From: Gilliamella apis
GTDB lineage: Bacteria > Pseudomonadota > Gammaproteobacteria > Enterobacterales > Orbaceae
Reading direction: 5' to 3'
Assembly: GCF_002142155.1 (NCBI RefSeq)
Contig: NZ_NASD01000003.1
Location: 62,001-126,000 of the forward strand
DNA: 64,000 nt
Of this stretch, positions 17,490 through 39,726 are shown piece by piece; position 1 is the first letter of the stretch, and every line of letters starts with the position of its first letter. The translations under genes were made by a program, and so were the position numbers. Under the pieces are notes generated by a model. That model did no database searches, was not told the origin of the DNA, and saw only the letters and a list, made by a program, of their open reading frames with translations.

Positions 17490-18872
17490 CTAAGGATAGA
17501 CACAGACTCCGCTAAATGCTGAGTAGACGTAAACACTCTTATATAGATCACCATCCCCAAAAAAAACTAGAAAAAAAAGACCACCCGTGACTCTATCTTG
17601 CGTCCAGTAGGTCTGCGTGTAGTAGTCGCCGTTTGAGTAGCGTATGCGGAAGTTGGCATTAGCGTAATAGAACATCCGCCCCCATTCCGAGACAAATCCT
17701 GCACCAATGTGACGACGGACATAATTACCAGGTGACGAAGGCGTTGCACTTAGGCAGCCAGAATCTCCACCAAATATCTGACAAGACGCATTAGTTAAAT
17801 CCTTGACCTTAGGAAGACGATATCCTCCAATCTTATTACACCAAGACGATACACTTTCATTAGTATAAAATTTAGTTCCACGATTGACAAACCACTGCTT
17901 TAACTCAAATCCATATTTGACCACCGCATTACCACTGCTATCACGACCGACTAACTCAAATACCTGAGGTAAAGATATTCTGGCGATTTGACCTGGATTT
18001 TCTGATTGCCATTGCGATTCTGTAGCAACAGGACCAGTTAGGGTGACTCGAACGCTGGTACTTGTTGAATCGGTCATCGTTGCAGTAATACCACCATGAG
18101 AAACCGGAGCCCAAGATAAGGCTTGACTAACACCACCAATATCTAAATCAAAATACAAATTATGAGCACCAGTAGTCGGGAAGTTTAAACCATAAGACGA
18201 TGGCGTAAATGATTGTGGTAGAAAACCCTTAGCAAGGACCCAAACGTCAGTAGAAGAATATTCCCATACTGCTAGGTCAGGTCTTGCAAAACAAATCACT
18301 GGCGCTGCCTTAGGATTAATATAATAAGTGGCATTACCTTCCGTAAAACGACTTTCATTAGGTACCCCATAACGTGTTTTTAATGTACCTTCACTATTTG
18401 ATAAGGTTAATTTATATGGCGCTTTACAAATTGTCAGTACTTCACTACGGTTAACAGAATTATTGTCGTTATCAACAATAGTTAATTTTAAACTACCGGT
18501 AGCGGTGATACCATCAATCCCCTGACCATCGCCATCATCATCTCCCCAATAATTATACGGTGTGCCAATAAGTGAACTTAATGCAATAGAATCAGTATCC
18601 GTTGGTACTAACATACCAATATCATTAAAACTCTGACCATCAACAGGTAAAATGATAGGATTGTCTCTTGAATTAGTGGTTGTGGGAGTAAATGTTCTAC
18701 CATCAGAAAGGGATATCCTGAGTAGCGCTTCGGTATTGGTTACCCGGGTACGACCTCCATCAAAGGTTAAATAAGGGGCTGAGCCATAAATAATATTGGT
18801 CGTTGTAGTGGTTAATGCATAATTAGCAAAAGAGATAGATTGTAAAACAACCATAGTTAATACCAAAACCAT
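17490..18872 (-). CDS. C1: secreted adhesin-like protein, cassette family member
   Basis: Body of 460 aa from the first in-frame ATG, with a hydrophobic export signal (VLVLTMVVLQSISFANYA). Conserved scaffold: SAPYLTFDGGRTRVTNTEAL, NYWGDDDGDGQG, YGVPNESRFTEGNATYYINP, NFPTTGAHNLYFD, LVGRDSSGNAVVKYGFELKQW. The C-terminal third is hypervariable but keeps WC, YRLPKVKDLTNASC, HIGAGFVSEW, YW and a final VCVYP. This layout resembles DUF823-type adhesion domains and a C-type-lectin-like fold; that is inference. The body ATG has no ribosome site, and the frame stays open upstream to the 7-bp repeats at 19021. Confidence 0.85.
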   Translation of the reverse strand: MVLVLTMVVLQSISFANYALTTTTTNIIYGSAPYLTFDGGRTRVTNTEALLRISLSDGRTFTPTTTNSRDNPIILPVDGQSFNDIGMLVPTDTDSIALSSLIGTPYNYWGDDDGDGQGIDGITATGSLKLTIVDNDNNSVNRSEVLTICKAPYKLTLSNSEGTLKTRYGVPNESRFTEGNATYYINPKAAPVICFARPDLAVWEYSSTDVWVLAKGFLPQSFTPSSYGLNFPTTGAHNLYFDLDIGGVSQALSWAPVSHGGITATMTDSTSTSVRVTLTGPVATESQWQSENPGQIARISLPQVFELVGRDSSGNAVVKYGFELKQWFVNRGTKFYTNESVSSWCNKIGGYRLPKVKDLTNASCQIFGGDSGCLSATPSSPGNYVRRHIGAGFVSEWGRMFYYANANFRIRYSNGDYYTQTYWTQDRVTGGLFFLVFFGDGDLYKSVYVYSAFSGVCVYP

Positions 18873-19020
18873 CGGCCGAGATAAACAGGCGAAACCAAGA
18901 AATTTTGAAAAATTTTGCCGGAATTGCGGAAATTTTGGAAATTGCTGAAATAATAAACTGCGGTTAAATAATAAACGGTGTGAGCTTAACTTTAGAAAGG
19001 TGAAATTATAGGTTGGGCAG

Positions 19021-19181
19021 GTTGTGTGTTGTGTGTTGTGTGTTGAAAATTATAATCCATATCAGATATCCTTGTCAATCCAATTTTATGATTTATTTAA
19101 AATTTTAAGCCTAACGGCATAAAATTTATCCATTCGTATAAATATGCTATAAAAGTATAGTGATTGCAAAAAACCATGCAA
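19021..19181 (-). promoter_or_regulatory. C1 upstream switch region: promoter, SD-ATG and heptanucleotide repeats
   Basis: On the minus strand: TTGCAT (19181-19176), 16-bp spacer, TATACT (19159-19154); then SD AAGGA eight bases before an ATG at 19060; then the 7-bp repeat (GTTGTGT on the plus strand) three and a half times at 19021-19045. The ATG is 188 bases from the body ATG at 18872 (2 mod 3), so it currently runs into a stop after 22 codons. One more repeat unit would fuse it to the C1 frame. Confidence 0.7.
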
Positions 19182-19292
19182 CTTTTTTTGACGGTTTTAT
19201 TGTTAACTTTTGTAAAGATTAATGTAATATTACGTTTTAATTACGCCCTTAAAACCTATTTCGAAGAAACTTTAGGGGGATTTTTAGGCTTT

Positions 19293-20236
19293 AAAAACCC
19301 CTCTCCTCAAAATTTTTTAGTTCTTTATTTTTTAGTTGTTTGAGTTTCGGACGTTTTGTTGTTTTGCGGTTATTTTTATACGGTGATTACGTCCGAGTTA
19401 AGAGGGTTGGCGCCAACCCTCTTTACAATCTCCCGCGGCGACCACGCAAGTGGTCACGATGTGACTGCCTTCCGCCTTCGTTCGGTCTTAACGCACCGGC
19501 TGTGATTTGTTCCTGACAAAGCACCGCCTTGGCAAACATCCCTGTTTGCCATGCTAACCTCACTCAGTTGTCAGCACATTGCGAATGTCGCTAAATTAAA
19601 TACACCATACTTATTTGCCAAAATAAACGTTTATGTTTATAGCAAGCTAATTTTAGTTTTAAAACCAATTTCGGAGAAACTTGGACGGGATTTTTGGCTT
19701 TAAAAACCCCTCTCCTCAAATTTTTTTGGTTGTTTTAGTTTCGGACGTTTGTTGTTTTGTGGTTATTTCTATACGGTGATTACGTCCGAGTTAAGAGGGT
19801 TGCCGCGAACCCTCTTTACAATCTCCCGCGGCGACCACGCAAGTGGTCACGATGTGACTACCTTCCGCCTTCGTTCGCTCTTAACGCTCCTTGGCAAACA
19901 TCCCTGTTTGCCATGCTAACCTCACTCAGTTGTCAGCACATTGCGAATGTCGCTAAATTAAATACACCAAACTTATTTGCCAAAATAAACTTTTATGTTT
20001 ATAGCAAGCTAATTTTAGTTTTAAAACCAATTTCGGAGAAGCTTGGACGGGATTTTGGTTTTAAAAACCCCATTTCTCAAATTTTTTTGGTTGTTTGAGT
20101 TTCGGACGTTTTGTTGTTTGGTGGCTAGTTCTATACGGTGAATACGTCCGAGTTAAGAGGGTTGGCGCGAACCCTCTTTACAATCTCCCGCGGCGACCAC
20201 GCAAGTGGTCACGATGTGACTGCCTTCCGCCTTCGT
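19293..20236 (+). repeat. Three tandem modules upstream of asnA (19293, 19702, 20063; last truncated)
   Basis: Same multi-hairpin module, periods 409 and 361 bp. The third copy stops at CCTTCCGCCTTCGTT (20236), in the middle of the element, 83 bases before asnA, marking a deletion or insertion junction. The CACAGCC arm is mutated to CACCGCC in the first copy. Confidence 0.88.
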
Positions 20237-20318
20237 TTAAGCCTGTTAACTAGACTTGCATATTTCTGCTTTCTAGTTTAATTTAGCAACACAAATTTTT
20301 TATATTTCGAGACTAAAC

Positions 20319-21311
20319 ATGACAATATCATTTAAAGAGCAGCAACAACGAATCAATTTTGTTAAACAATTTTTTGCCGAGCAATTAGCAAATAATCTAT
20401 CACTAATTGAAGTTCAAGCACCAATATTGAGTCAAATTGGTGATGGCGTTCAAGATAATTTGTCAGGTACCGAAAAAGCCGTTCAAGTTAATATTAAAAG
20501 TATTCCTAATGCACAATTCGAAGTTGTTCATTCACTAGCTAAATGGAAACGTAAAACGTTAAGTCAGCACAATTTTCCTGTTGGTGAAGGCATTTATACA
20601 AATATGAAAGCTCTGCGCCCGGATGAAGATAAACTCTCGCCTATTCACTCTGTTTATGTTGATCAATGGGATTGGGAAAAAGTGATTCGTCCCGAAGATC
20701 GCAATTTAGCTTATTTAAAACAAACGGTTGAAAAAATTTATAGTGCGATTAAAGCGACTGAAAAAGCAGTCTCTGAAAAATATCATCTATCACGTTTTTT
20801 ACCCGAAACAATTACCTTTATGGATAGTGAACAGCTGTTAAAACGTTATCCAAATTTATCACCAAAAGAGCGTGAAAATGCAATTACCAAAGAGTTAGGC
20901 GCTGTATTTTTAATTGGTATTGGTGGTGAATTATCAAATAATGAAAAACATGATGTTCGTGCTCCTGATTATGATGATTGGAGTAGTGATAATGAAATGG
21001 GTTCAAAAGGCTTAAATGGCGACATTTTAGTTTGGAATCCTGTGTTAAATAGTGGTTTTGAAATCTCATCAATGGGGATCCGTGTCGATCCAGAAACCTT
21101 AAAACGGCAATTAAAACTGACTAATAATGAAGATCGCCTCCAATATGCATGGCATAAAGCATTAGCTAATGGTGATTTTTTACAAACAATTGGTGGTGGA
21201 ATTGGCCAATCACGATTAACCATGTTACTTTTACAGCAACAACATATTGGTCAAGTACAAGCAAGCGTTTGGGACGATGCCACTAAACAAAATTATTCAA
21301 AACTACTTTAG
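20319..21311 (+). CDS. asnA: Aspartate--ammonia ligase
   Basis: Ammonia-dependent asparagine synthetase, 330 aa as in E. coli. It is related to class II aminoacyl-tRNA synthetases and makes asparagine from aspartate, NH3 and ATP. Motifs: [52 protein letters not shown], and the C-terminal [14 protein letters not shown]. It is stranded between a truncated module on its left and tenA debris on its right. The promoter must lie between 20236 and 20319 or inside the module. Confidence 0.96.
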
Positions 21312-21344
21312 TTTAAAAATTGTTTAAATATAGTTCAAATTCAG

Positions 21345-21376
21345 CATACTTTACCCATAGTGGTAAAGTATGTTTG
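21345..21376 (+). terminator. Hairpin terminator after asnA
   Basis: An 11-bp stem CATACTTTACC / GGTAAAGTATG with a 6-base loop, followed by TTTGTT, 34 bases after asnA. The T tract is short, so efficiency is uncertain. It abuts the end of the tenA-like remnant on the other strand. Confidence 0.6.
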
Positions 21377-21590
21377 TTATTTAAAACGTTTATCTAAACC
21401 CATTTGCCAGAAACCAATTTCAAGTTTAGTTGCTTGCCTAAATAATTTTGTTAAATGTTCAATGCGACTATCCTCTAAATTTACTAAGCTGATCAATCAA
21501 CGCAATTTCATTTGGCATTGTTTGTTGGAATTCGTTTCTAGCATATTTGTTAACCAGACTGTTATATCTATGGTTATTTCTTGCGAATCA
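21377..21590 (-). pseudogene. tenA-like thiaminase II remnant, 5' part lost and frameshifted
   Basis: On the minus strand two frames joined by a one-base shift near 21470 read YARNEFQQTMPNEIALIDQL and then HLTKLFRQATKLEIGFWQMG before a stop at 21379. The second stretch matches the TenA C-terminus (acidic residue, FW-M). A TGA interrupts it upstream at about 21587. Only about 70 codons remain. It is downstream of a TPP riboswitch with a decayed module in between, so a thiamine-salvage gene was destroyed. Confidence 0.6.
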
Positions 21591-21601
21591 GTTTGGCAAG
21601 T

Positions 21602-21737
21602 CTTGTTTAGTGATATTAGCAATGTGTGACAACTGAGTAAGATTAGCATGGCAAATAGGGATGTTTGAGAAGGTTGTTTTTGTCAGGAACAAATCACAGC
21701 AGTGCGTTAAGAGCGAACGAAGGCAGAAGAGCGAATA
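21602..21737 (-). repeat. Decayed, inverted, truncated module inside the former tenA locus
   Basis: On the minus strand this reads CTGCCTTCGTTCGCTCTTAA ... TTTGTTCCTGAC ... AACATCCCTATTTGCCATGC ... CTCAGTTGTCACACATTGC, the 3' half of the module with many substitutions and a worn hairpin. Orientation is opposite to the copies on either side. It sits between the TPP riboswitch and the tenA remnant. Confidence 0.75.
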
Positions 21738-21814
21738 GAATAACGGCATGATGACTTCTTTTTATAAAAATTAGTAATTAAGGAGTACAACAGACTTGTA
21801 GAAAAACGTATTTT

Positions 21815-21886
21815 ATACTCCCTTCGCCGGTACTAACCGAATCAGGTTCAACGGGTATAATCTCAGCCTAGGGCACCCCGGATAAA
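21815..21886 (-). promoter_or_regulatory. TPP (thiamine pyrophosphate) riboswitch, orphaned
   Basis: On the minus strand the THI-box core is complete: GGGGTGCCC, CTGAGATTATACCC, GTTGAACCTGATTCGG, TTAGTACCGGCGAAGGGA. This is an aptamer that binds thiamine pyrophosphate and represses downstream thiamine genes. An ATG follows at 21749 but after a few codons it enters module sequence. No intact thiamine gene follows, only the tenA remnant at 21377-21590. Confidence 0.93.
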
Positions 21887-22025
21887 TACAGATGAATAAT
21901 AGTTCAGCAAATAAATAACAATTTTTATAAAGATAGTAGTTTATTAACCGTTACTATTTATTCAAATGTTCTTTATTTATTAATTAACCGATAGATCTTC
22001 TATAACTATAGCTAATAATCAGTAA

Positions 22026-22406
22026 CTATTCTGTCTTCGACTCAACTTGTTGATTATCTTCTGAAGATGGTGCTACTTTTTCTTGTTGAGAAGATTTCTC
22101 TAATTCAGCTTGTTCGGCTTGCTGATTAGAAATTGAAGACTCTTGTTGTTTTGCTTCAGTTGTTAGCGAATTATCTTGTGAACGAACATATACTATCTTT
22201 TGTTGACCACGATCACACGATCCGACAATTTTACCTGCAACGCCTTGCTCAGCTTGCTCGGATGGAACTAAATTTAATTGAAAACTGTTTTCATCAACAC
22301 CATTGTTTTTGATTTTCTCAGCGATACTGGTACTAATTTCTTCACAATTAGAAGCTGCGGCAACCATTGGCAGACCTAACAATAAAACCACGACTAACTT
22401 TTTCAT
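22026..22406 (-). CDS. DUF1161-type small secreted protein
   Basis: 126 aa with a clear signal peptide (MKKLVVVLLLGLPMVAAAS) and a compact periplasmic domain with two cysteines (NCEEI near residue 21 and GSCDRGQQKIVYVRS near residue 63), the pattern of the DUF1161 family. The C-terminal 50 residues are Gln/Glu-rich and probably disordered. SD AGGAAAGGG precedes the ATG. Function unknown. Confidence 0.78.
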   Translation of the reverse strand: MKKLVVVLLLGLPMVAAASNCEEISTSIAEKIKNNGVDENSFQLNLVPSEQAEQGVAGKIVGSCDRGQQKIVYVRSQDNSLTTEAKQQESSISNQQAEQAELEKSSQQEKVAPSSEDNQQVESKTE

Positions 22407-22543
22407 ACCCTTTCCTATAAATTATAAATAATAAGTTTTGTTGCATTGTAAAACGATTGATAAAACTGTCCATATCGTTATAAGCGATATGATAAATAAA
22501 TTTTATCAATTTATTAATGAAGTTAGCGCAAGATTCTAACCGA

Positions 22544-22774
22544 TTAATCTTGCTTATGCTGGCTTTCAAGTACTCTCAATTTATCTAAAACCCAACAGCG
22601 AATATCGGCTAATTCAGCTTCAGACAATCGATTAACAAAATCTCTTTTTTCATGAAGTTGTTTACGATCCTCATCAGTCAAAACAACCCCTTTTAAATTT
22701 AATAATACTTCTTTACGGTACATAGAATAGATAAAATCTTTTATCAAATCGTCAGAAAGATTAATGTTAGCCAT
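22544..22774 (-). CDS. Small cytoplasmic protein of unknown function (76 aa)
   Basis: Acidic-basic mixed, helix-rich product beginning MANINLSDDLIKDFIYSMYR. SD AAGGAA eight bases before ATG, and the codon pattern looks coding. No signal peptide or membrane segment. It lies upstream of the DUF1161 gene by 137 bases on the same strand. I do not recognise the family. Confidence 0.65.
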   Translation of the reverse strand: MANINLSDDLIKDFIYSMYRKEVLLNLKGVVLTDEDRKQLHEKRDFVNRLSEAELADIRCWVLDKLRVLESQHKQD

Positions 22775-23162
22775 TTTGATTTCCTTATTTTATATCTTTA
22801 ACGCTCATACGATTAAGTCGACATCTAAACTAATAACATCATCACTCAATGTGAAAGAGTATTAAAAAATAAACTCTGTTTAATAAACAGCCGGATCTCC
22901 AATATAATCGAATCGCAAATAGATGACAATAATTGAATCTGATAATGCAAATTAAAACTTAGTTTTTTAGTTAAAACTAAATTGTGAATTATTCACTTAA
23001 TTATTTGATAAGTATTTAACAAACCTGTTGATAACCTTGCAACACATTGATAAATAAAAACTTAATAGCAAGGTTAAAATTTAATCGGCAACAGAATAAT
23101 CCATTTTTGAAACTAAACCCTATATATTTGTCAACAGAAATCATCTAACAATTTGATAAAAA
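22775..23162. other. Intergenic stretch without visible genes
   Basis: AT-rich, with stops in all frames. It should contain the promoter of the 76-aa gene near 22800-22860. A pair of inverted octamers (AACCTTGC / GCAAGGTT) around 23032-23077 is the only structure seen. Confidence 0.4.
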
Positions 23163-23194
23163 AATACAGCATAAGGTTTAAATTATGCTGTATT
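23163..23194 (-). terminator. Terminator of the SemiSWEET gene
   Basis: A stem of at least 11 bp (ATACAGCATAA / TTATGCTGTAT) with an 8-base loop, followed on the minus strand by seven T, 30 bases after the stop. Confidence 0.8.
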
Positions 23195-23224
23195 GAAATA
23201 ATACAAAGAAGTATAACAATAAAT

Positions 23225-23488
23225 TTACAATGCCGTAAAAAATGCAATTAATCCAAACAAAACACCAGGGGAATTAGCTATAGCAATCGGCCAATCTTTT
23301 TTAGGTTGTAATAATCCATAACAAACCCATAACGAACAGTTAATTGCTGCAGCTAATGGTTGAGTTGGATTGGTTTTGAAACCATGAAGATTGTCGATAA
23401 TTTGCGGAATATATGACACATACATACCTAATGATGCAATCGTTGCAACGACGCCTAAATAATGGAAAGCTTTGGGTGAAAGATTCAA
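23225..23488 (-). CDS. SemiSWEET-type sugar transporter
   Basis: 87-aa membrane protein with three transmembrane helices (about residues 8-28, 43-62, 66-86), the single triple-helix unit that dimerises to move sugars passively. Signature residues include YIPQI in helix 1 and AAAINCSLWVCYG in helix 2. The start codon is TTG (MNLSPKAF) with AGG seven bases before it. Monocistronic with its own terminator. Confidence 0.88.
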   Translation of the reverse strand: MNLSPKAFHYLGVVATIASLGMYVSYIPQIIDNLHGFKTNPTQPLAAAINCSLWVCYGLLQPKKDWPIAIANSPGVLFGLIAFFTAL

Positions 23489-23649
23489 GATCAGCCTACC
23501 TGCTTAATGTGAATGGAAAAATTAATCTATCATAGATAATCAGCGATTTAAACCTTATTCTACCTAGCTTTTAGACAATTTAATGTAAATAAAATGATAA
23601 AAAATAGCTGATAAAATTAGTAATATTTTGATAATAAAAATAAAAAAAT

Positions 23650-24037
23650 TTGAGGAACGTGGTTTTTAAAGCCTAAAACCCCCACAGTTCTCTGAAATTG
23701 CTTATAAAACTAAAATCAGCTCACATCAACCATCAAAGTTTATTGCTTGCCAAGCGTTTGCTGTATTTAATTTAGCGAGATTAGCAATGTGCTGATAACT
23801 GAGTGAGATTAGCACGGCAAACAGGGATGTTTGACAAGTTTGTCTGGAGCAAATCACAACCGGTGCATCAATAGCGAACGCAGGCGGAAGGCTGTCACAT
23901 CGTGACCACTTGCGTGGTCGCCGCAGGAGTTAGTAAAGAGGGTTTGCGCCAACCCTCTTAACTCGGACGTAATCGCCATACAGAACTAGCCATAAAACAA
24001 TAAAACGTCCGAAACTAAAACAACCAAAAAAGGGGTT
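23650..24037 (-). repeat. Inverted module between SemiSWEET and niaP
   Basis: A near-full-length module on the minus strand, from CCCCTTTTTTGG (24037) through the hairpins to the AT-rich tail, ending with the start of another copy (TTGAGGAACG, 23652). The hairpin AAGAGGGTTG/CAAACCCTCTT has changed by a base, so it is older than the copies near C1-C6. It ends 7 bases from the niaP stop codon. Nothing else lies in 23489-24043. Confidence 0.85.
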
Positions 24038-24043
24038 AATAAG

Positions 24044-25285: not shown

Positions 25286-25320
25286 AATCAATAAGTTAAT
25301 GCAGATTTTAGTATGTGTGA

Positions 25321-26721: not shown

Positions 26722-26766
26722 CTTTTATTTTTAAAGTTTCCTAGAACTTATTACCTTAAAAGCAAA

Positions 26767-26792
26767 ATTGGATGGGTTAATTATAGTCCAAT
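26767..26792. promoter_or_regulatory. Candidate PdxR operator between mocR and pdxS
   Basis: Inverted hexamers ATTGGA / TCCAAT separated by 14 bases, surrounding TATAAT on the minus strand (26785-26780) that could be the regulator gene's own -10 box. Position in the divergent promoter region fits a shared operator. This is inference from symmetry only. Confidence 0.4.
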
Positions 26793-26871
26793 TGGCTGTT
26801 TATTGCAGTGCTTTAATTTTGAATAATAGTCCTGACATTAGACAACTAACATTAATTAATCAGGAGTAGCA

Positions 26872-28352: not shown

Positions 28353-28414
28353 CGCTTAAAATATAGTCCATTTTTAATCTGTAAAAATAGCAAATTTTCG
28401 TAATATTTGATTAT

Positions 28415-28731: not shown

Positions 28732-28809
28732 GCCACAAAATCGTTTTTATCGTCCTAACATTATTTTTCTTATCCTCAGCTTCAATACCTAAGAACTAAG
28801 AAATAATAG

Positions 28810-30210
28810 CTAAGGATAGACACAGAGTACCGCTTTGTAGGTGACGCCATCAAACGACACGTCACCAAAACCCGAATCAACCGCAAAATAATATCGGTTA
28901 TCACTCGTCTTATCATTCGCCCAATAGTTATATGGTTCGAAGTTGGCACCAGTATAACGGACCATCGTCCCCCATTCCGTGAAAAATCCTGCACCAATGT
29001 GACGCCGCATCATATGATCAGGTGACGAAGGCGTTGCCGTTAATGCATTTACTTGATTTCCATAATTTCGACATACATATCCTGAATCATCCTCAGGACA
29101 AGACGCATTAGTTAAATCCATGACCTTTACGAGACGGTATCCAATCCTATTACACCAAGATGATGCACTAGAAAAGGTATAAGAAGAGTTCCAATATTCC
29201 TCTCCACGATTAACAAACCACTGCTTTAACTCAAATCCATATTTGACCACCGCATTACCACTGCTATCACGACCGACTAACTCAAATACCTGAGGTAAAG
29301 AGGATCTGGCGATTCTACCTGGATTATCTGATTCCCATTGCGATTCTGTAGCAACAGGACCTGTTAGGGTGACTCGAACGCTGGTACTTGTTGAATCGGT
29401 CATCGTTGCCGTAATACCACCATGAGAAACCGGCGCCCAAGATAAGGCCTGACTAACACCACTAATATCTAAATCAAAAAACAAATTATGAGCACCAGTA
29501 GTCGGGAAGTTTAAACCATAAGACGACGGCGTAACTGACTGTGGTATAAAACCCTTACCAAATTCCCAAACGGCAACAGAAAGACCTTGCATTGCAGTGT
29601 AGTCGCCTAGGTCAGGTCTTGCATAACAAATCACTGGCGATGCCTTAGGATTAATATAATAAGTGGCATTACCTGCACTAAAACGACTTTCATTAGGTAC
29701 CCCATAACGTGTTGTTAATCTACCTTCACCATTAGATAAGGTTAATTTATATGGCGCTCTACAAATAGTCAGCACTTCATTATGGGCAACAGCTTGACTA
29801 TTTTTATCGACAATGGATAAATTTAAACTACCGGTAGCGGTGACGCCATTAACGCCCTGACCATCTCCATCATCATCCCCCCAATAATTATACGGTGTGC
29901 CAATAAGTGAACTTAATGCAATAGAATTAGTATTCCTTGGTACTAACATACCAATATCATTAAAACTCTGACCAACAACAGGTAATTCGATAGGATTAGT
30001 TGAACTTGAATTATTGGTTGTCGGAGTAAATGCTCTACCATCAGATAGCGATATCCCGAGTAGCGATTCGGTATTTGTTACCCGGGTACGACCTCCATCA
30101 AAGGTTAAATAAGGTGCTGAGCCATAAATAATATTGGTCGTTGTAGTGGTTAATGCATAATTAGCAAAAGAGATAGACTGTAAAACAACCACGGTTAATA
30201 TGAAAACCAT
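28810..30210 (-). CDS. C2: secreted adhesin-like protein, cassette family member
   Basis: 466-aa body, scaffold nearly identical to C1 over the first 130 residues and the LVGRDSSGNAVVKYGFELKQW block. Variable patch 1 follows ICYARPDLGDY and variable patch 2 is the C-terminal 110 residues (WCNRIGYRLVKVMDLTNASC, HIGAGFFTEW, NYWANDKTSD, final LCVYP). The upstream open frame carries five tandem copies of a 9-bp unit encoding F-R-Q, present in full only here. Signal peptide as in C1. Confidence 0.85.
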   Translation of the reverse strand: MVFILTVVVLQSISFANYALTTTTTNIIYGSAPYLTFDGGRTRVTNTESLLGISLSDGRAFTPTTNNSSSTNPIELPVVGQSFNDIGMLVPRNTNSIALSSLIGTPYNYWGDDDGDGQGVNGVTATGSLNLSIVDKNSQAVAHNEVLTICRAPYKLTLSNGEGRLTTRYGVPNESRFSAGNATYYINPKASPVICYARPDLGDYTAMQGLSVAVWEFGKGFIPQSVTPSSYGLNFPTTGAHNLFFDLDISGVSQALSWAPVSHGGITATMTDSTSTSVRVTLTGPVATESQWESDNPGRIARSSLPQVFELVGRDSSGNAVVKYGFELKQWFVNRGEEYWNSSYTFSSASSWCNRIGYRLVKVMDLTNASCPEDDSGYVCRNYGNQVNALTATPSSPDHMMRRHIGAGFFTEWGTMVRYTGANFEPYNYWANDKTSDNRYYFAVDSGFGDVSFDGVTYKAVLCVYP

Positions 30211-30385
30211 CGGCTGAGATAAACAGGCTAAACCAAGAAATTTTGAAAAATTTTGCCGGAATTTCGGAAATTGTCGAAATTGTCGAAATTGTCGAAATTG
30301 TCGAAATTGTCGAAATAATAAACTGCGGTGAAATAATAAACGGTATGAGCTTAACTTTAGAGAGGTGAAATTATAGGTTGGGCAG

Positions 30386-30546
30386 GTTGTGTGTTGTGTG
30401 TTGTGTGTTGAAAATTATAATCCATATCAGATATCCTTGTCAATCCAATTTTATGATTTATTTAAAATTTTAAGCCTGATGGCATAAAATTTATCCATTC
30501 GTATAAATATGCTATAAAAGTATAGTGATTGCAAAAAACCATGCAA
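30386..30546 (-). promoter_or_regulatory. C2 upstream switch region
   Basis: TTGCAT (30546-30541), 16 bp, TATACT (30524-30519); SD AAGGA; ATG at 30425; 7-bp repeat (GTTGTGT on plus) at 30386-30410, three and a half copies. ATG to body ATG (30210) is 215 bases, 2 mod 3, hence out of frame as in C1. Confidence 0.7.
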
Positions 30547-30749
30547 CTTTTTTTGACGGTTTTATTGTTAACTTTTGTAAAGAAGAATACTGCTAGCCCG
30601 AAAACAGCATCGGTTATTTGCTGTTTATTAGAAATAATAGCCCCTTTATCCCCTCTTTAAAAATCACTATTTTTAATATTAATAATTTGCAGATTAGGCT
30701 TTTGATTTTGACAATTTTATAGTCGTTTTTAGAAGGTATTTTGCGTTTC

Positions 30750-31081
30750 AAAAACCCCGTTCCTCAGATTTTTTATTCTTTGAGTTTCGGACGTTTGTTG
30801 TTTGGTGGTTATTTCTATACGGTGAATACGTCCGAGTTAAGAGGGTTGGCGCCAACCCTCTTTACAATCTCCCGCGGCGACTACGCAACTGGTCACTACG
30901 TGACTGCCTTCCGCCTTCGTTTGCTCTTAACGCACCTTGCCAAACATCCCTGTTTGCCATGCTAACCTCACTCAGTTGTCAGCACATTGCCAATGTCGCT
31001 AAATTAAATACACCATACTTATTTGGCAAAATACACTTTAATTATTGGAACTAGTTGATGTTATAACTAGCGTTAGCGATT
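30750..31081 (+). repeat. Module between C2 and C3
   Basis: Core 30750-30999 with a short tail. The GGCTGTG/CACAGCC hairpin is missing and the GACCAC/GTGGTC arm has substitutions (GACTACGCAACTGGTC). The 30590-30740 segment upstream holds a second flank type (CTGCTAGCCCGAAAACAGC...) shared only with the C4 upstream region. Confidence 0.85.
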
Positions 31082-31171
31082 TAGTTGATTAATTTATTAT
31101 CTAAAGTAGATATAAAATAATTCCTAATACTAAATAACATCTTTTTTAATAGATTTTTACTTATAGATAAT

Positions 31172-32770
31172 TTATAGCCAATCAATCCAATCAGGAGTAA
31201 AACATAATGTCGGATATCCCCTAGTATCACCTATTTCTGCGGATATATTTCCATCTAAAGGACGGACAATATTATAAACCCAATCTGTAAGACTTTGTTG
31301 TTTTACACGTTTTCCTGTCCAATAATATGTATTTGGATTAATATTTAAACCATAATCCACTAAATTACCCCATTCACTAAATAATCCTCCACCAATATGA
31401 CGCCAATAACGACCTCCATCAGAGAAAGAGTTTTTATTAGGAAAATTTAAACCTGTAATATTGTATACAAAATTATCATAAGTAAAGGTTCCTGATGCAG
31501 AAGTAAGATCTACTGGATCAGGCAATCGGTATTCATCAGCATTTACATCTTCAGTTCTACCCGGTACTCCATCTAATGCTAAACACCAATTTGTATGTTC
31601 TCGACTATTATGTGAAATTATATTTTTATCACGCACAACAAACCATTTTTGTAGAACAAACCCATATTTAGCAACAATATCACCTTTGCTATTCATTCCA
31701 GATAAAGTAAATTTGGCTGGTAATATTGATGGTTTCTTTGCTATAGCTCCATCATTATTAGATGTTGGTATAGGACCAGTTATAGTTACTAATACACGAT
31801 TTGTTCCTTCATTTTTCATCGTCGCAGTAATATCACCAACTTTTACTGTAGGCCATGTCAGTACTTCTTTTGCTCCATCGATCAATAGATAAAAATAGAG
31901 GCTATCACCTGCTAAAGTTGGAAAATTTTGAGCGTAATCTCGACCAAGAGCAGATTGAACTAAAAACCCTTTATTCGAATCCCAAATATTTGTTGGTCCT
32001 GAAAATATACCAGTATTATTAGCCATACTTCCTGGCATTGCATTGCATATAGATGGTTGTTCATCATGTGGATATATAATATATTTTGCTATTCCGCTAC
32101 CATATATTTTTGATGATGGATCACCATATTTAGTACTCAATTGTGCATTATCTGCTTTTAAAGTTAATGTATAAGGGCCAAAACAATGAGTAGGTAATTC
32201 GTTCAAATCCCCCAATATTAGATTATTCTTACTGTCTTTCCATTGTCCTATAATATTACCATTCAAAATGAAATCATTATCTCCATCATCATCTGCAATT
32301 AAGCTATTATCAATTATGTTGAATGAGTAATTGTTGTTATCTGGTACTACTATTGATTTTACACTTGCAAATGTATCTCCTGGCTTTGATAAAGATATAT
32401 TTGTTACGGAAACTAAATCACCATCAGGATTTTTTTTGTACATATTTCCAGCTTCATCGCTTATATAAACAGTATTCCCTACTTTAATACTTAATAATTC
32501 AGAGATATCTTTTATGCGAGTATTATTATATTCAATATATGGTAATGACCCTTTAATTGTCAAAGATGTATGAGTAGATAAACTATATGCAAACTGAGAA
32601 AAGCTAGTTATAAATAATGAAATAACTATCTTTAATAATAAATTATCAAAAATAAAACTAGATTTTTTAGATCTTTTCAATGACGAGACATCATAAAAAA
32701 CTGTCGTTTTCAGATCGTTACTATCTGAAAAAACATTTACAACATGAAATTTATGTCGAATTGAACACAA
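31172..32770 (-). CDS. C3: divergent member of the secreted cassette family
   Basis: 532 codons from a TTG at 32770, with no ATG nearby. Same domain order as C1 (SLPYIEYNNTRIKDISELLSI, KYGDPSSKIYGSG, LSGMNSKGDIVAKYGFVLQKW, NWCLALDG, RLPDPVDLTSASG, HIGGGLFSEW, YYWTGKRV, PTLCFTP) but under half identical. The export signal is LLLKIVISLFITSFSQFAYS, preceded by a long basic region. The frame is open a further 60 codons upstream to the 7-bp repeats. It lacks the 3' flank shared by the other five. Confidence 0.82.
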   Translation of the reverse strand: MCSIRHKFHVVNVFSDSNDLKTTVFYDVSSLKRSKKSSFIFDNLLLKIVISLFITSFSQFAYSLSTHTSLTIKGSLPYIEYNNTRIKDISELLSIKVGNTVYISDEAGNMYKKNPDGDLVSVTNISLSKPGDTFASVKSIVVPDNNNYSFNIIDNSLIADDDGDNDFILNGNIIGQWKDSKNNLILGDLNELPTHCFGPYTLTLKADNAQLSTKYGDPSSKIYGSGIAKYIIYPHDEQPSICNAMPGSMANNTGIFSGPTNIWDSNKGFLVQSALGRDYAQNFPTLAGDSLYFYLLIDGAKEVLTWPTVKVGDITATMKNEGTNRVLVTITGPIPTSNNDGAIAKKPSILPAKFTLSGMNSKGDIVAKYGFVLQKWFVVRDKNIISHNSREHTNWCLALDGVPGRTEDVNADEYRLPDPVDLTSASGTFTYDNFVYNITGLNFPNKNSFSDGGRYWRHIGGGLFSEWGNLVDYGLNINPNTYYWTGKRVKQQSLTDWVYNIVRPLDGNISAEIGDTRGYPTLCFTPDWIDWL

Positions 32771-32916
32771 CTTTGATTTATTTGTTTTCGGAATAACTTT
32801 ACATTGATTAACGTTAGAGGTTCGTTTTAATATTTTTTGAAAAAATAAACGATAAAGAGATACTAAACTTTGGTAGTTGAAATAAGCTGATTTTAAATTA
32901 TAGGTTTGGCAGATTT

Positions 32917-33076
32917 GGTGTTTGGTGTTTGGTGTTTTACATTATAATGCATGGCGACAATCCTGTCAAGTAATTATCTGTTTTATTTGGCTTTTTTAGT
33001 ACTGTTCGACTAAATATCCATCGATTATTATATTTAACATATAATGAAAGTATAGTGACGAGAAAAATCTAAGCAA
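32917..33076 (-). promoter_or_regulatory. C3 upstream switch region
   Basis: TTGCTT (33076-33071), 16 bp, TATACT (33054-33049); SD AGGA eight bases before ATG at 32952; three exact 7-bp units (GGTGTTT on plus) at 32917-32937. ATG lies 182 bases from the TTG at 32770, 2 mod 3. The sequence has diverged from C1, but the spacing and order are kept. Confidence 0.68.
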
Positions 33077-33187
33077 CTTTTTTTAAAAGTTAAATTGTTA
33101 ATTTTTGTAAAGTTTAATGTAATATTATGTCTTAATTACGCCCTTAAAACCTATTTCGAAGAAACTTTAGGGGGATTTTTAGGCTTT

Positions 33188-33470
33188 AAAAACCCCGTTC
33201 CTCAATTTTTTGGGTTTGATGAGTTTCGGACGTTTTGTTGTTTGGTGGCTAGTTCTATACGGTGATTACGTCCGAGTTAAGAGGGTTGGCGCCAACCCTC
33301 TTTACAATCTCCCGCGGCGACCACGCAAGTGGTCACGATGTGACTGCCTTCCGCCTTCGTTCGCTCTTAACGCACCGGCTGTGATTTGTTCCTGACAAAG
33401 CACCGCCTTGGCAAACATCCCTGTTTGCCATGCTAACCTCTCTCAGTTGTCAGCACATTGCGAATGTCGC
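33188..33470 (+). repeat. Module between C3 and C4
   Basis: Core of 283 bp with the five-hairpin order (the fourth worn, CACCGCC), followed by the standard C-gene 3' flank. Confidence 0.88.
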
Positions 33471-33549
33471 GCCACAAAATTGCTTTTTATCGTCCTAACG
33501 TTATTTTTCTTATCCTCAGCTTCAATACCTAAGAACTAAGAAATAATAG

Positions 33550-34980
33550 CTAAGGATAGGTACAGATTCCGACCATTTCGTAGGTCACATTCAAATCCAT
33601 GACACCCACGCTACCCATCACATTAATAGTAAAAGCTTTGTTATTTATCAACTCAGGCTTATCATTTGTCCAATAATAAAACCACTGCCATGTTAAGTCG
33701 AAACCAGTGTAAAACGCTACATTCGACCATTCCGACATAAATCCTGCACCAATGTAAAGCTTGTAAGAATTCTGAGGTGACGAAGGCGTTGCAGCTACTA
33801 TTTCATTTCCATAATTTTGACAAAACGATGTATTAGAGTTAACGCCCTGACAAGACGCATTAGTTAAATCCTTGACCTTAGCCATACGGTATCCTCCAAT
33901 CTTATTACACCAAGATGATGCACTATAATAGTTATGTCCATAATCACCACGGCTATCAAGACCACGATGAACAAACCACTGCTTTAACTCAAATCCATAT
34001 TTGACCACCGCATTACCACTGCTATCACGACCGACTAACTCAAATACCTGAGGTAAAGATGGTTTGTCGATTCTACCTGGATTTTCTGATTGCTGTTGCG
34101 ATTCTGTAGCAACAGGACCCGTTAGGGTGACTCGAACGCTGGTACTTGTTGAATTGGTCATCGTCGCCGTAATACCACCATGAGAAACCGGAGCCCAAGA
34201 TAAGACCTGATTAGTACCAAAAATCTTTAAATCAAAATACAAATTATGAGCACCAGTAGTCGGAAAGTTTGAACCATAAGACGATGGCGTGAATGACTGT
34301 GTTATAAAACCCTTATTCCGGTCTTCTAAAATGCCAGGAGTAAACAGATCAGAATATGGAGCACCATAAAACGCGAGATGGAGCATAGGTTTTGCAAAAC
34401 AAATCTGTGTTTCCTTAGGATTAATATAATAAGTGGCATTACCTTCCGTAAAACGACTTTCATTAGGCACACCATAACGTGTTTTTAATGTACCTTCATC
34501 ATTAGATAAGGTTAATTTATATGGTGCTTTACAAATAGTTAGCACTTCATTACGGGCAACAGGATTATTGTCTTTATCAGCAATAGATAAATATAAACTA
34601 CCGGTAGCGGTGACACCATTAACGCCCTGACCATCACCATCATCATCCCCCCAATAATTATACGGTGTGCCAATAAGTGAACTTAATGCAATAGAATCAG
34701 TATCCGTTGGTACTAACATACCAATATCAGCAAAACTCTGACCCTCAACAGGTAACTCGATAGGATTAGTTGAACTCGAATTATTGGTTGTCGGAGTAAA
34801 TGTTCTTCCATCTGAAAGGGATATCCCGAGTAGCGCTTCGGTATTGGTTACCCGGGTACGACCACCATCAAAGGTTAAATAAGGTGCTGAGCCATAAATA
34901 ATATTGGTCGTTGTAGTGGTTAATGCATAATTAGCAAAAGAGATAGACTGTAAAACAACCATGGTTAATACCAAAACCAT
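33550..34980 (-). CDS. C4: secreted adhesin-like protein, cassette family member
   Basis: 476-aa body with the C1 scaffold. Variable patch 1 after ICFAKP is longer here (includes YGAPYSDLFTPG), and the C-terminal domain keeps WCNKIGGYRMAKVKDLTNASC, YIGAGFMSEW, YYWTNDKPE and final GICTYP, with the usual HIGAGF histidine changed to tyrosine. Signal peptide identical to C1. Body ATG has no SD; upstream frame open to the repeats. Confidence 0.85.
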   Translation of the reverse strand: MVLVLTMVVLQSISFANYALTTTTTNIIYGSAPYLTFDGGRTRVTNTEALLGISLSDGRTFTPTTNNSSSTNPIELPVEGQSFADIGMLVPTDTDSIALSSLIGTPYNYWGDDDGDGQGVNGVTATGSLYLSIADKDNNPVARNEVLTICKAPYKLTLSNDEGTLKTRYGVPNESRFTEGNATYYINPKETQICFAKPMLHLAFYGAPYSDLFTPGILEDRNKGFITQSFTPSSYGSNFPTTGAHNLYFDLKIFGTNQVLSWAPVSHGGITATMTNSTSTSVRVTLTGPVATESQQQSENPGRIDKPSLPQVFELVGRDSSGNAVVKYGFELKQWFVHRGLDSRGDYGHNYYSASSWCNKIGGYRMAKVKDLTNASCQGVNSNTSFCQNYGNEIVAATPSSPQNSYKLYIGAGFMSEWSNVAFYTGFDLTWQWFYYWTNDKPELINNKAFTINVMGSVGVMDLNVTYEMVGICTYP

Positions 34981-35128
34981 CGGCCGAGATAAACAGACTA
35001 AACCAAGAAATTTTGAAAAATTTTGCGGAAACTTTGGAAATTTCGGAAATTGCTGAAATAATAAACTGCAGTGAAATAATAAACGGTATGAGCTTAACTT
35101 TAGAAAGGTGAAATTATAGGTTGGGCAG

Positions 35129-35289
35129 GTTGTGTGTTGTGTGTTGTGTGTTGAAAATTATAATCCATATCAGATGTCCTTGTCAATCCAATTTTATGAT
35201 TTATTTAAAATTTTAAGCCTAATGGCATAAAATTTATCCATTCGTATAAATATGCTATAAAAGTATAGTGATTGGAAAAAACCATGCAA
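35129..35289 (-). promoter_or_regulatory. C4 upstream switch region
   Basis: TTGCAT (35289-35284), 16 bp, TATACT (35267-35262); SD AAGGA; ATG at 35168; 7-bp repeat at 35129-35153. ATG to body ATG (34980) is 188 bases, out of frame by the same amount as C1. Confidence 0.7.
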
Positions 35290-35494
35290 CTTTTTTTGGC
35301 GGTTTAATTGTTAACTTTTGTAAAGAAGAATACTGCTAGCCCGAAAACAGCATCGGTTATTTGCTGTTTATTAGAAATAATAGCCCCTTTATCCCCCTCT
35401 TAAAAAAATCACCATTTTTAATATTAATAATTTGCAGATTAGGTTTTTGATTTTGACAATTTTATAATCGTTTTTAGAAGGTATTTTGCGTTTT

Positions 35495-35745
35495 AAAAAC
35501 CCCTTTCCTCAATTTTTTTGGTTCGCTGAGTTTCGGACGTTTGTTGTTTTGCGGTTGTTTCTATACGGTGATTACGTCCGAGTTAAGAGGGTTGGCGCGA
35601 ACCCTCTTTACAATCTCCCGCGGCGACCACGCAAGTGGTCACGATGTGACTGCCTTCCGCCTTCGTTCGCTTTTAACGCTCCTTGCCAAACATCCCTGTT
35701 TGCCATGCTAACCTCACTCAGTTGTCAGCACATTGCGAATGTCGC
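35495..35745 (+). repeat. Module between C4 and C5
   Basis: Core of 251 bp; the GGCTGTG hairpin is absent, the other four are present. Second flank type precedes it (35321-35490), as for C2. Confidence 0.88.
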
Positions 35746-35824
35746 ACCACAAAATCGCTTTTTATCGCCCTAACATTATTTTTCTTATCCTCAGCTTCAA
35801 TACCTAAGAACTAAGAAATAATAG

Positions 35825-37216
35825 CTAAGGATAGACACAGACTCCGAAGAGTTTGGTATTCTCTACTGCTATGGTAGGGTAGGAATACATAGTACCCCAA
35901 TCCGAGTGAACATAAAAAGAATATTGGTTGTTATTCGTCTTATCACTCGCCCAATAGCTAACGAAGTAGAAGTTAGTATCAAGGTAATAGAGCATACTCC
36001 CCCATTCCGTGAAAAATCCGGCACCAATGTAACGACTGAAAAACACATCAGGTGACGAAGGCGTTGCCTCTACTAGATCGTTACAAGCGTCTTCTGTATT
36101 ATTTCCCCGACAAAACGCATTAGTTAAATCCTTGACATTTGGGACACGGTATCCTCCAATCTTATTACACCAAGATGATAGACTAGAAAGGTTACTTGTA
36201 TAATCACCACGATTAGCAAACCACTGCTTTAACTCAAATCCATATTTGACCACCGCATTACCACTGCTATCACGACCGACTAACTCAAATACCTGTGGCA
36301 AAGATAGTCTGGCGATTCTATCTGGATTTTCTGATTCCCATTGATTAGGGTCTGTAACGGCAGGACCTGTTAGGGTGACTCGAACTTCGTTACTTGTTGA
36401 ATAGGTCATCGTCGCCGTAATACCACCATGAGAAACCGGCGCCCAAGATAAGGCCTGAGCATTACTACCCCCAATAATTAAATCAAAATATAACTTATTA
36501 GCTCCAGTAGTCGGGAAGTTTGAACCATAAGACGACGGCGTAACTGACTGTATTAGAAAACCCTTATCAAGGTTCCATATATTAACAGGACCAGGAGTGT
36601 TATGTGAAACGTTGTGCAAGCTAGGTTTAGCAAAACAGATCACCGGCGCTGCCTTAGGATTAATATAATAAGTGGCATTACCTTCCGTAAAACGACTTTC
36701 ATTAGGTACCCCATAACGTGTTTTTAATGTACCTTCATCATTAGATAAGGTTAATTTATATGGCGCTTTACAAATAGTCGGCACTTCATTACGGGCAACA
36801 GAATTATTGTCGTTATCAACAATAGTTAATTTTAAACTACCGGTAGCGGTGACACCATTAACTCCCTGACCATCGCCATCATCATCCCCCCAATAATTAT
36901 ACGGTGTGCCAATAAGTGAACTTAATGCAATAGAATCAGTATCCGTTGGTACTAACATACCAATATCCGCAAAACTCTGACCCTCAACAGGTAACTCGAT
37001 AGGATTGTCACTTGAATCATTGGTTGTGGGAGTAAATGTTCTACCATCAGAAAGGGATATCCTGAGTAGCGCTTCGGTATTGGTTACCCGGGTACGACCA
37101 CCATCAAAGGTTAAATAAGGTGCTGAGCCATAAATAATATTGGTCGTTGTAGTGGTTAATGCATAATTAGCAAAAGAGATAGACTGTAAAACAACCATGG
37201 TTAATACCAAAACCAT
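35825..37216 (-). CDS. C5: secreted adhesin-like protein, cassette family member
   Basis: 463-aa body with the C1 scaffold. Variable patch 1 reads SLHNVSHNTPGPVNIWNLD and resembles the corresponding patch of divergent C3 (GPTNIWDSNKGF), hinting at exchange between members. C-terminal domain keeps WCNKIGGYRVPNVKDLTNAFC, YIGAGFFTEW, SYWASDKT and final GVCVYP. Body ATG without SD. Confidence 0.85.
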   Translation of the reverse strand: MVLVLTMVVLQSISFANYALTTTTTNIIYGSAPYLTFDGGRTRVTNTEALLRISLSDGRTFTPTTNDSSDNPIELPVEGQSFADIGMLVPTDTDSIALSSLIGTPYNYWGDDDGDGQGVNGVTATGSLKLTIVDNDNNSVARNEVPTICKAPYKLTLSNDEGTLKTRYGVPNESRFTEGNATYYINPKAAPVICFAKPSLHNVSHNTPGPVNIWNLDKGFLIQSVTPSSYGSNFPTTGANKLYFDLIIGGSNAQALSWAPVSHGGITATMTYSTSNEVRVTLTGPAVTDPNQWESENPDRIARLSLPQVFELVGRDSSGNAVVKYGFELKQWFANRGDYTSNLSSLSSWCNKIGGYRVPNVKDLTNAFCRGNNTEDACNDLVEATPSSPDVFFSRYIGAGFFTEWGSMLYYLDTNFYFVSYWASDKTNNNQYSFYVHSDWGTMYSYPTIAVENTKLFGVCVYP

Positions 37217-37350
37217 CGGCCGAGATAAACAGACTAAACCAAGAAATTTTGAAAAATTTTGCTGAATTTGTTGGAAAAATAAACTGCGGTTAAATAATAA
37301 ACGATGCGAGCTTAACTTTACTAACGTTAAATTATAGGTTGGGCAGGTTT

Positions 37351-37507
37351 GGTGTTTGGTGTTTGGTGTTTAAAATTATAATACATATTCGACATTCCTG
37401 TCAATTAAATTAATGATTAATTTACGATTTTGCACCTATTGGCGCAAAATTTATCCATTTATATAAATATAGTACGAAAATTATAGTGATTGGAAAAAAC
37501 CATGCAA
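37351..37507 (-). promoter_or_regulatory. C5 upstream switch region
   Basis: TTGCAT (37507-37502), 16 bp, TATAAT (37485-37480); SD AGGA nine bases before ATG 37386; three 7-bp units GGTGTTT (plus) at 37351-37371, the C3 version of the repeat. ATG to body ATG (37216) is 170 bases, 2 mod 3. Confidence 0.7.
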
Positions 37508-37618
37508 CTTTTTTTGATGGTTTAATTGTTAACTTTTGTAAAGGTGAATGTAATATTATGTTTTAATTACTTGCTTAAAACCTATTTCGGAGAAACTTTA
37601 GGGGGATTTTTAGGCTTT

Positions 37619-37901
37619 AAAAACCCTGTTCCTCAAATTTTTTTGGTTGTTTGAGTTTCGGACGTTTGTTGTTTTGTGGTTATTTCTATACGGTGATTAC
37701 GTCCGAGTTAAGAGGGTTGCCGCGAACCCTCTTTACAATCTCCCGCGGCGACTACGCAAGTGGTCACGATGTGACTGCCTTCCGCCTTCGTTCGCTTTTA
37801 ACGCACCGGCTGTGATTTGTTCCTGACAAAGCACCGCCTTGCCAAACATCCCTGTTTGCCATGCTAACCTCTCTCAGTTGTCAGCACATTGCGAATGTCG
37901 C
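37619..37901 (+). repeat. Module between C5 and C6
   Basis: Core of 283 bp. The segment after it (37915-37980) carries a short extra hairpin (ATTGCC/GGCAAT) not seen behind other copies before the common C-gene 3' flank. Confidence 0.88.
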
Positions 37902-38034
37902 ACTACAAAATCGTTTTTTAACACCCACTTCGTTAACGTCAATGCCATTGCCTTGGCAGGGCAATGATTGTTTAATGTCCTAACATTATTTTTCTTATCC
38001 TCAGCTTCAATACCTAAGAACTAAGAAATAATAG

Positions 38035-39447
38035 CTAAGGATAGACACAAAGTCCGCGGAAGCTTTTATTCAACGTCGGCAAGAACCAAATAATACCAGT
38101 GGCATTGTCACCACTTAGATCAGAACCCTGGGTAATTACAAAATTGTAATCAGCTGTCGCCCAAAAGTAACCTTTGAAGAAGTTAGCACCAGTGTACGTG
38201 TAATCGAACATCGACCCCCATTCCGATAACAATCCTGTACCAATGTGACGACGGACCTTATTATCAGGTGACGAAGGCGTTGCACTTTCTACACCTTGAC
38301 ACACATCTTGACTCTCCCCCCTTCTTGGTTGACAAGTCGCATTAGTTAAATCCCTGACCTTTGGAAGACGGTATCCAATCTTATTACACCAAGATTCCAC
38401 ACTAGAAGAGGTACTTACATAACTACCACGATTAACAAACCACTGCTTTAACACAAATCCATATTTGACCACCGCATTACCACTGCTATCACGACCGACT
38501 AACTCAAATGTCTGCGGTAAAGATGGTTTGTCAATTCTACGTGGATTTTCTGATTGCCATTGCGATTCTGTAGCAACAGGACCCGTTAGGATGACTCGAA
38601 CGTATTGGCGTCCATCAGATAAGATAAGTTCATCGGTCATCGTCGCCGTAATACCACTATGCTTAACCGGCGCCCAAGATAAGGACCGACCAACACCACC
38701 AATATGTAACCAAAAAAACAAATTATGAGCACCAGTAGTCGGGAAGTTTAAACCATAAGACGATGGTGTAACTGACTGTGGTAGAAAACCATACGTCCAG
38801 TCCCAAACGGCAGCAGAAAGACCTCTATCAGTCCACACGGAACCAGGTCTTGCACCACAAATCTTTGGCGTCGTTTCCTTAGGATTAATATAATAAGTGG
38901 CATAACCTGCCGTAAAACGACTTTCATTAGGCACCCCATAACGTGTTTTTAATGTACCTCCACTATTAGATAAGGTTAATTTATATGGCGCTCCTCCACA
39001 AATATCAAGCACTTCATTACGGGCAACAGGTAGATTCCATCTATTGACAATAGATAAACTTAAACTACCGGTAGCGGTTATATCATTAGTACCCTGACCA
39101 TCGCCATCATCATCACCCCAATAATTATACGGTGTGCCAATAAGTGAACTTAATGCAATAGAATTAGTATCCGTCGGTACTAACATGCCAATATCTGCAA
39201 AACTCTGACCAGTAACAGGTAAAGCGATAGGATTAGTTGAACTGGAATTATTGGTTGTGGGAGTAAATCTTCTACCATCAGAAAGGGATATCCCGAGTAG
39301 CGCTTCGGTATTGGTTATCCGGGTACGACCACCATCAAAGGTTAAATATGGGGCTGAGCCATAAATAATATTGGTCGTTTTTGTGGTTAATGCATAATTA
39401 GCAAAAGAGATAGACTGTAAAACAACTACGGTTAATACCAAAACCAT
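38035..39447 (-). CDS. C6: secreted adhesin-like protein, cassette family member
   Basis: 470-aa body with the C1 scaffold. Distinguishing patches: GSVWTDRGLSAAVWDWTYGF, a longer loop around TDELILSDGRQYVRVILTG, and a C-terminal domain with WCNKIGYRLPKVRDLTNATC, HIGTGLLSEW, YFWATADYN and final GLCVYP. The shortest N-terminal extension of the set (30 bases fewer than C1, exactly ten codons). Body ATG without SD. Confidence 0.85.
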   Translation of the reverse strand: MVLVLTVVVLQSISFANYALTTKTTNIIYGSAPYLTFDGGRTRITNTEALLGISLSDGRRFTPTTNNSSSTNPIALPVTGQSFADIGMLVPTDTNSIALSSLIGTPYNYWGDDDGDGQGTNDITATGSLSLSIVNRWNLPVARNEVLDICGGAPYKLTLSNSGGTLKTRYGVPNESRFTAGYATYYINPKETTPKICGARPGSVWTDRGLSAAVWDWTYGFLPQSVTPSSYGLNFPTTGAHNLFFWLHIGGVGRSLSWAPVKHSGITATMTDELILSDGRQYVRVILTGPVATESQWQSENPRRIDKPSLPQTFELVGRDSSGNAVVKYGFVLKQWFVNRGSYVSTSSSVESWCNKIGYRLPKVRDLTNATCQPRRGESQDVCQGVESATPSSPDNKVRRHIGTGLLSEWGSMFDYTYTGANFFKGYFWATADYNFVITQGSDLSGDNATGIIWFLPTLNKSFRGLCVYP

Positions 39448-39565
39448 CGGCCGAGATAAACAGGCTAAACTAAGAAATTTTGGAAATTGTCGAAATAATA
39501 AACTACTGTGAAATAATAAACGATATGAGCTTAACTTTAGAGAGGTGAAATTATAGGTTGGGCAG

Positions 39566-39726
39566 GTTGTGTGTTGTGTGTTGTGTGTTGAAAATTATAA
39601 TCCATATCAGATGTCCTTGTCAATCCAATTTTATGATTTATTTAAAATTTTAAGCCTAATGGCACAAAATTTATCCATTCGTATAAATATGCTATAAAAG
39701 TATAGTGATTGCAAAAAACCATGCAA
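39566..39726 (-). promoter_or_regulatory. C6 upstream switch region
   Basis: TTGCAT (39726-39721), 16 bp, TATACT (39704-39699); SD AAGGA; ATG at 39605; 7-bp repeat (GTTGTGT on plus) at 39566-39590. ATG to body ATG (39447) is 158 bases, again 2 mod 3. Confidence 0.7.

Follow-up and report, generated by a model that had tools for sequence, protein, structure and literature searches.

What do the tandem 7-bp repeats do that lie between the start codon and the protein body in six genes of one stretch of Gilliamella apis DNA (the window, 64 kb)? The original prediction read them as a phase-variation switch shared by these six genes, here termed C genes. All six predicted ATGs were confirmed on the minus strand (Table 1). 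Recomputation returned the predicted distances from ATG to body (188, 215, 182, 188, 170 and 158 nt in genes 1 to 6, each 2 mod 3) as well as the short ATG-frame peptides, which end after 22, 22, 19, 22, 19 and 22 codons, so that the ATG is out of the body frame by an identical amount in every gene. The Shine-Dalgarno (SD) sequence, predicted to be good, proved to be a modest AGGA in all six; the three repeats are present as claimed, starting 15 nt 3' of the A of the ATG and not directly after it. Each tract is 24-25 nt long and consists of three perfect units (CAACACA in four genes and AAACACC in two, read from the first tract base) plus a partial unit of 3-4 nt. The body frame is open 5' of the body and across the heptamers, the next stop lying just before the tract, or overlapping tract bases 1-2 in gene 5. 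No other exact period-7 tract of 21 nt or more occurs in the window, and 50 windows simulated with a first-order Markov model contained none. The leader of gene 2 also holds 5.6 perfect copies of a 9-bp repeat in the body frame (window positions 30267-30316); repeats of this kind alter leader length and leave the frame unchanged.

Table 1. Coordinates of the repeat tracts, C genes and putative promoters in the window.
Feature	Position	Strand	ATG	Description
Heptamer tract, gene 1	19021..19045	-	19058-19060	3x CAACACA + partial; exact period 7 and frame relation
Heptamer tract, gene 2	30386..30410	-	30423-30425	3x CAACACA + partial
Heptamer tract, gene 3	32914..32937	-	32950-32952	3x AAACACC + partial
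Heptamer tract, gene 4	35129..35153	-	35166-35168	3x CAACACA + partial
Heptamer tract, gene 5	37347..37371	-	37384-37386	3x AAACACC + partial
Heptamer tract, gene 6	39566..39590	-	39603-39605	3x CAACACA + partial
C gene 1	17490..19060	-		Begins with start codon and heptamers; then a leader without stops in the body frame, a signal and an intimin/invasin-like body
C gene 2	28810..30425	-		
C gene 3	31172..32952	-		Divergent member, 35% identity to gene 1 (alignment)
C gene 4	33550..35168	-		Structure model made from its body
C gene 5	35825..37386	-		
C gene 6	38035..39605	-		
Putative sigma70-like promoter P1, gene 1	19154..19181	-		TTGCAT-16-TATACT; -10 ~100 nt 5' of ATG; consensus match
Putative P1-like promoter, gene 2	30519..30546	-		Consensus match
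Putative P1-like promoter, gene 3	33049..33076	-		TTGCTT-16-TATACT
Putative P1-like promoter, gene 4	35262..35289	-		Consensus match
Putative P1-like promoter, gene 5	37480..37507	-		TTGCAT-16-TATAAT
Putative P1-like promoter, gene 6	39699..39726	-		Consensus match

Relatives of the six genes were surveyed with a tract defined as at least 16 nt of exact period 7, a definition under which impure arrays are under-counted and which partly accounts for the lack of a near-unit at the tract edge in all 130 heptamer copies. Sixty-five unique copies selected by pattern (from 67 matches listed, with two contig-end fragments merged) comprised 59 with three units, one of them cut by a contig end, three with two, two with four and one with a single unit. 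Frame status in these copies was taken from the stop positions, the automatic labels having marked three in-frame copies OFF. A wider set of 190 copies included 130 with both a tract and an ATG, a fraction that is not to be read as a rate since pattern-fetched and protein-fetched loci are mixed. This set carries 27 genome labels, including at least two doubles (G022/App4-10 and G019/SRR17188281) that touch the heptamer-free counts only. Nine copies less than 250 nt from a locus edge and the loci L125-L132 and L152 were excluded, L072 and L075 were artefact rows, and one App6-5 copy has a tract without an ATG. A further copy (L123, genome G010) was omitted from frame scoring on account of an N within its tract.

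Among the 129 scorable heptamer copies, 122 are out of frame (OFF) and seven in frame (ON). The OFF copies comprise 114 with three units, one read as three (L197 of Pra-s52, counted automatically as four and read by eye as three units plus matching flank), four with two, two with twelve and one with fourteen. The three long arrays are built of GACAACA and belong to strains App6-5 and WF3-4. Six of the ON copies have four units; the seventh, L139 of G040, is the sole in-frame copy with three and has an extra nucleotide 3' of the tract. It had been predicted that one added unit, or the loss of two, would bring the ATG into frame, and that 4-unit alleles should be sought: the six four-unit copies come from five genomes other than the window's, and a one-unit in-frame copy was found in the window's own genome (G000). 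The latter carries two unlike units and was placed in the tract-free class because its tract is too short for the threshold. Altogether 19 unit sequences were distinguished, 16 of which occur as exact triplets in one shared OFF phase. Copies one nucleotide shorter before the tract, in G000 and G006, are unchanged in phase at three units. A C paralogue of G000 (L133, contig C1, from position 830) instead carries 23 GCCA tetranucleotide units 24 nt past its ATG, and is in frame.

Turnover of units is also apparent between close sister copies. Identity was calculated over 80 nt upstream, the leader and 300 nt of the body, with the tract removed and gap columns unscored. On this measure the neighbours L102 (four units) and L103 (three) of G006 are 98.0% identical, an adjacent pair at L098 in the same genome (four and three) 96.7%, a pair at L088 of ESL0177 (two and three) 99.1%, and a pair at L179 of wkB178 (four and three) 93.2%, with 51 of 655 columns gapped; weaker pairs one unit apart share 82.8-90.3%, so that three pairs lie at 97-99% and four at 83-93%. 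As in translational phase variation by simple sequence repeats, the 7-bp units lie in the 5' coding region, are not a multiple of three in length, differ in number among close relatives (here paralogues and not strains) and set the frame. The unit variation, the long arrays and the GCCA paralogue are what slippage at a contingency locus would leave.

Such a switch requires that translation begins at the upstream ATG. An in-frame Met is found at a similar position in 55 of the 59 family members that lack a scorable heptamer tract, and most of these 55 continue into a leader resembling those of the heptamer genes; the upstream ATG is thus probably the real start codon. Tyrosine at codon 3 in 130 of 130 copies is no evidence, since the choice of ATG favoured TAT or TAC there in heptamer and tract-free copies alike. 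The leader itself is under coding constraint: in 129 of the 130 copies with heptamers, the body frame is open from inside the first unit. From the tract to the mature protein, stops make up 1 of 9144 codons in this frame, compared with 758 of 9035 and 534 of 9096 codons in the two others. In addition, 43 different spacings between ATG and profile position 1 (68-374 nt) occur among three-unit copies, 42 of them being 2 mod 3. That ATG and body keep a fixed phase although the majority of copies are out of frame is best understood if the in-frame state is sometimes used.

Three other readings of the same layout were weighed. In one, translation would begin 3' of the tract, either at the body ATG or at some weak start codon, transcription would come from a TTGACA-17/18-TATAAT promoter lying over the ATG, and the heptamers would act as a 5' leader adjusting transcription or RNA stability, in the manner of hmw1A, where the repeats lie within the promoter and alter expression level. 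This promoter-in-spacer arrangement was initially favoured. Both hexamers are perfect in all six window genes, and 126 of 130 heptamer copies have TTGAC at a spacing of 17-18 bp from the hexamer at codons 3-4. This conservation is partly by construction, as some loci were fetched with a pattern requiring TTGAC and TATAAT; among the 55 heptamer-free copies with a Met, only nine have TTGAC and eight more TTGAT. It was set back by drifting hexamers and by missing downstream starts. Of 85 distinct contexts, 54 carry TATAAT at codons 3-4; the other forms include TATCAT, TACCAT, TATACT and TACACT, while four heptamer-free ESL0177 copies retain TTGAC with TGTAGT at the -10 position. The body ATG of the original prediction, whose distances hold, is not a conserved start: gene 3 has TTG there, between tract and mature protein no in-frame ATG exists in 68 of 130 heptamer copies, and ATG, GTG and TTG are all absent in 19. 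Some 100 nt 5' of the ATG, each of the six window genes has a separate P1-like match to the sigma70 consensus, and -10-like hexamers cluster near the same distance in the other heptamer copies. Given this match and the drifting hexamer, P1 was taken as the putative promoter. In a promoter-repeat rheostat of the hmw type the repeats would lie within the promoter, 5' of the start codon; here the tract comes after the putative start codon, but the overlapping TTGACA/TATAAT pair is conserved in heptamer copies. A downstream start is accordingly considered unlikely. As TTGAC is tied to the heptamer copies, a second, tract-linked promoter giving transcripts that lack the ATG may nevertheless exist. 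The TTGACA upstream of the six ATGs (e.g., 19073-19078 in the window) at times forms a dyad, TTGACA-AGGA-TGTCAA, around the SD; this was seen by eye in some copies and is not general.

In another reading the three-unit form works as it stands: a -1 ribosomal frameshift, either at the heptamers or beyond them, would link the ATG and body frames and give every copy low, steady expression. The 2 mod 3 relation is the phase that a -1 shift needs, and three-unit copies do dominate with their bodies kept open. A canonical slippery heptamer, however, occurs in the overlap of just four of 114 three-unit OFF copies and a run of seven A/T in none, the ATG-frame stops are scattered from codon 14 to 36, and the four-unit and heptamer-free in-frame copies need no shift. 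Programmed frameshifting was rejected on the scarcity of canonical slippery sites and is regarded as highly improbable. A third reading, which is compatible with a switch, takes the three units as a relic spread by gene conversion and duplication, most genes being silent recombination donors. Leaders within the window's genome closely resemble each other, and three units were counted in 33 of its 33 scored heptamer copies, but the 19 unit sequences and the one-unit differences between sisters 98-99% identical indicate turnover, and bodies keep open frames (internal stops in two of 47 G000 protein matches). This reading seems rather doubtful, if somewhat less so than a downstream start. The natural in-frame and out-of-frame copies and the frame arithmetic instead support the phase-variation reading originally proposed, and the window genes and their relatives are very probably contingency loci turned ON and OFF by heptamer number.

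The proposed switch would work as follows. A message from P1 would carry the SD and ATG, at which ribosomes would initiate, translate five codons and enter the tract. With one or four units the frame would continue through a coding leader of about 50-70 residues, a signal peptide and the intimin/invasin-like protein (ON); with two, three, twelve or fourteen units another frame would be read to an early stop (OFF). The gene would be toggled whenever a single 7-bp unit is added or removed, for which slipped-strand mispairing is the most likely mechanism. Some Gilliamella genomes hold 30-40 such paralogues, nearly all in the three-unit OFF form, one unit short of ON, and it is therefore proposed that few are made simultaneously and that varying the surface would be of benefit.

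The OFF state that the six window genes share had been noted as surprising for independent switches. The observation stands, yet it is not peculiar to these genes: the shared OFF phase is the pattern of the whole sampled family. Per genome, OFF copies number 33 of 33 in the window's genome, 32 of 33 in wkB178, 14 of 14 in G. bombicola, 13 of 13 in ESL0177, seven of seven in the metagenome-assembled G005 and seven of nine in G006. If unit number were free, one third of copies would be expected ON; the binomial probability of seven in 129 is 1.7e-14, for copies that are not independent. When copies are grouped by genome and unit, an ON majority is seen in two of 33 groups (p = 2.3e-4 for an expected one third), which is only suggestive because groups are related by descent and conversion. 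Of the causes previously put forward, culture selection alone is unlikely in view of the metagenome-assembled genome, while gene conversion stays among the likely ones. Three units is short for a hypermutable tract, and likely causes of the three-unit OFF state are infrequent mutation at that length, selection that keeps most cells OFF, and leader copying between paralogues. It is improbable, though conceivable, that something beyond ordinary slippage keeps unit number at three. If so, a regulated or templated process would renew the 7-bp triplet and free single genes by adding one unit, and the family would be a silent reserve of which one or few members are used at once.

The predicted C proteins match the tips of intimin and invasin by fold: the model of the gene 4 body shows the pair of Ig-like and C-type-lectin-like domains found in these tips. 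The likeness is to the C-terminal domains; whole-model TM-scores to 1f00 are low (0.29/0.45) and, unlike in invasin and intimin, no beta-barrel was found in the C genes, IAT_beta, the barrel of inverse autotransporters, being matched in none of 35 members. Pfam Intimin_C was matched in two of the 35 (best E 7e-4). None of the five window proteins compared with Pfam (all but that of gene 5) matched a family at E 0.01, and NCBIfam likewise yielded none for four proteins. The single IAT_beta match of the genome (G000:C51:126297-127109) is a possible partner of the tip proteins, which may be surface-exposed.

In the window's genome, a loose start-plus-heptamer pattern was matched 39 times, and a search with one C protein gave 47 protein matches. 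The same protein was matched in 30 of 35 genomes of the genus, and a profile in 41 of 44 genomes of the taxonomic family; the loose pattern, which fits AACAC-type units only, was matched in seven of the 35. All 68 named loci from the protein-alignment search are Gilliamella records, and viral contigs gave no exact match to two patterns. Two further features of the window were observed. An element of about 362-394 bp stands in tandem at 19527-20237 and 40023-40896; 116 matches to it occur across the window's genome, and their coordinates place many in spacers adjoining C genes. A TPP riboswitch (Rfam RF00059, 69.9 bits) lies at 21801-21890 on the minus strand, and the ORF list holds no minus-strand ORF of at least 100 aa between it and the C gene whose frame ends at 18872.

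The closest known system is neuO of Escherichia coli K1 (CUS-3 prophage), with the unit AAGACTC. Like the present genes, neuO has tandem 7-bp units in the 5' coding region, their number modulo 3 setting the frame (PMC13001214). It encodes an O-acetyltransferase, has 3-53 units with 20 the commonest, and was OFF in 42 of 64 genomes, about two thirds and near chance (PMC13001214), in contrast to 122 of 129 copies here; the Gilliamella family also differs in its copy number, which reaches about 39 per genome, in the predominance of three units, in its many unit sequences and in its intimin-like products. The heptamers studied here lie inside the predicted reading frame, unlike the promoter repeats of hmw1A. 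That Haemophilus gene encodes an adhesin controlled by 7-bp tandem repeats (PMC8262952). Many short heptamer arrays near starts within one genome are shared with the TAACTGA repeats of Beggiatoaceae, which are of a single fixed unit, mostly just 5' of the start codon and at functionally unrelated genes (PMC4679880); the present arrays have 19 unit sequences, none of them TAACTGA, and lie 3' of the ATG. Literature pairing Gilliamella with phase variation, repeats, slippage or invasin did not treat this family in titles and abstracts, a search with most subscription journals outside its scope.

Phase-variable gene families are known mostly from pathogens. The present survey suggests that a genus of bee-gut symbionts appears to hold large intimin-like repertoires behind very short, default-OFF switches, with much of the variation among these proteins at the lectin-like end, and it raises the question of why copies so commonly rest at three units, a short tract for slippage. 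Since single strains can be used to colonise bees, it may be asked directly whether phages, strain competition or the host surface select for surface variation in a commensal.
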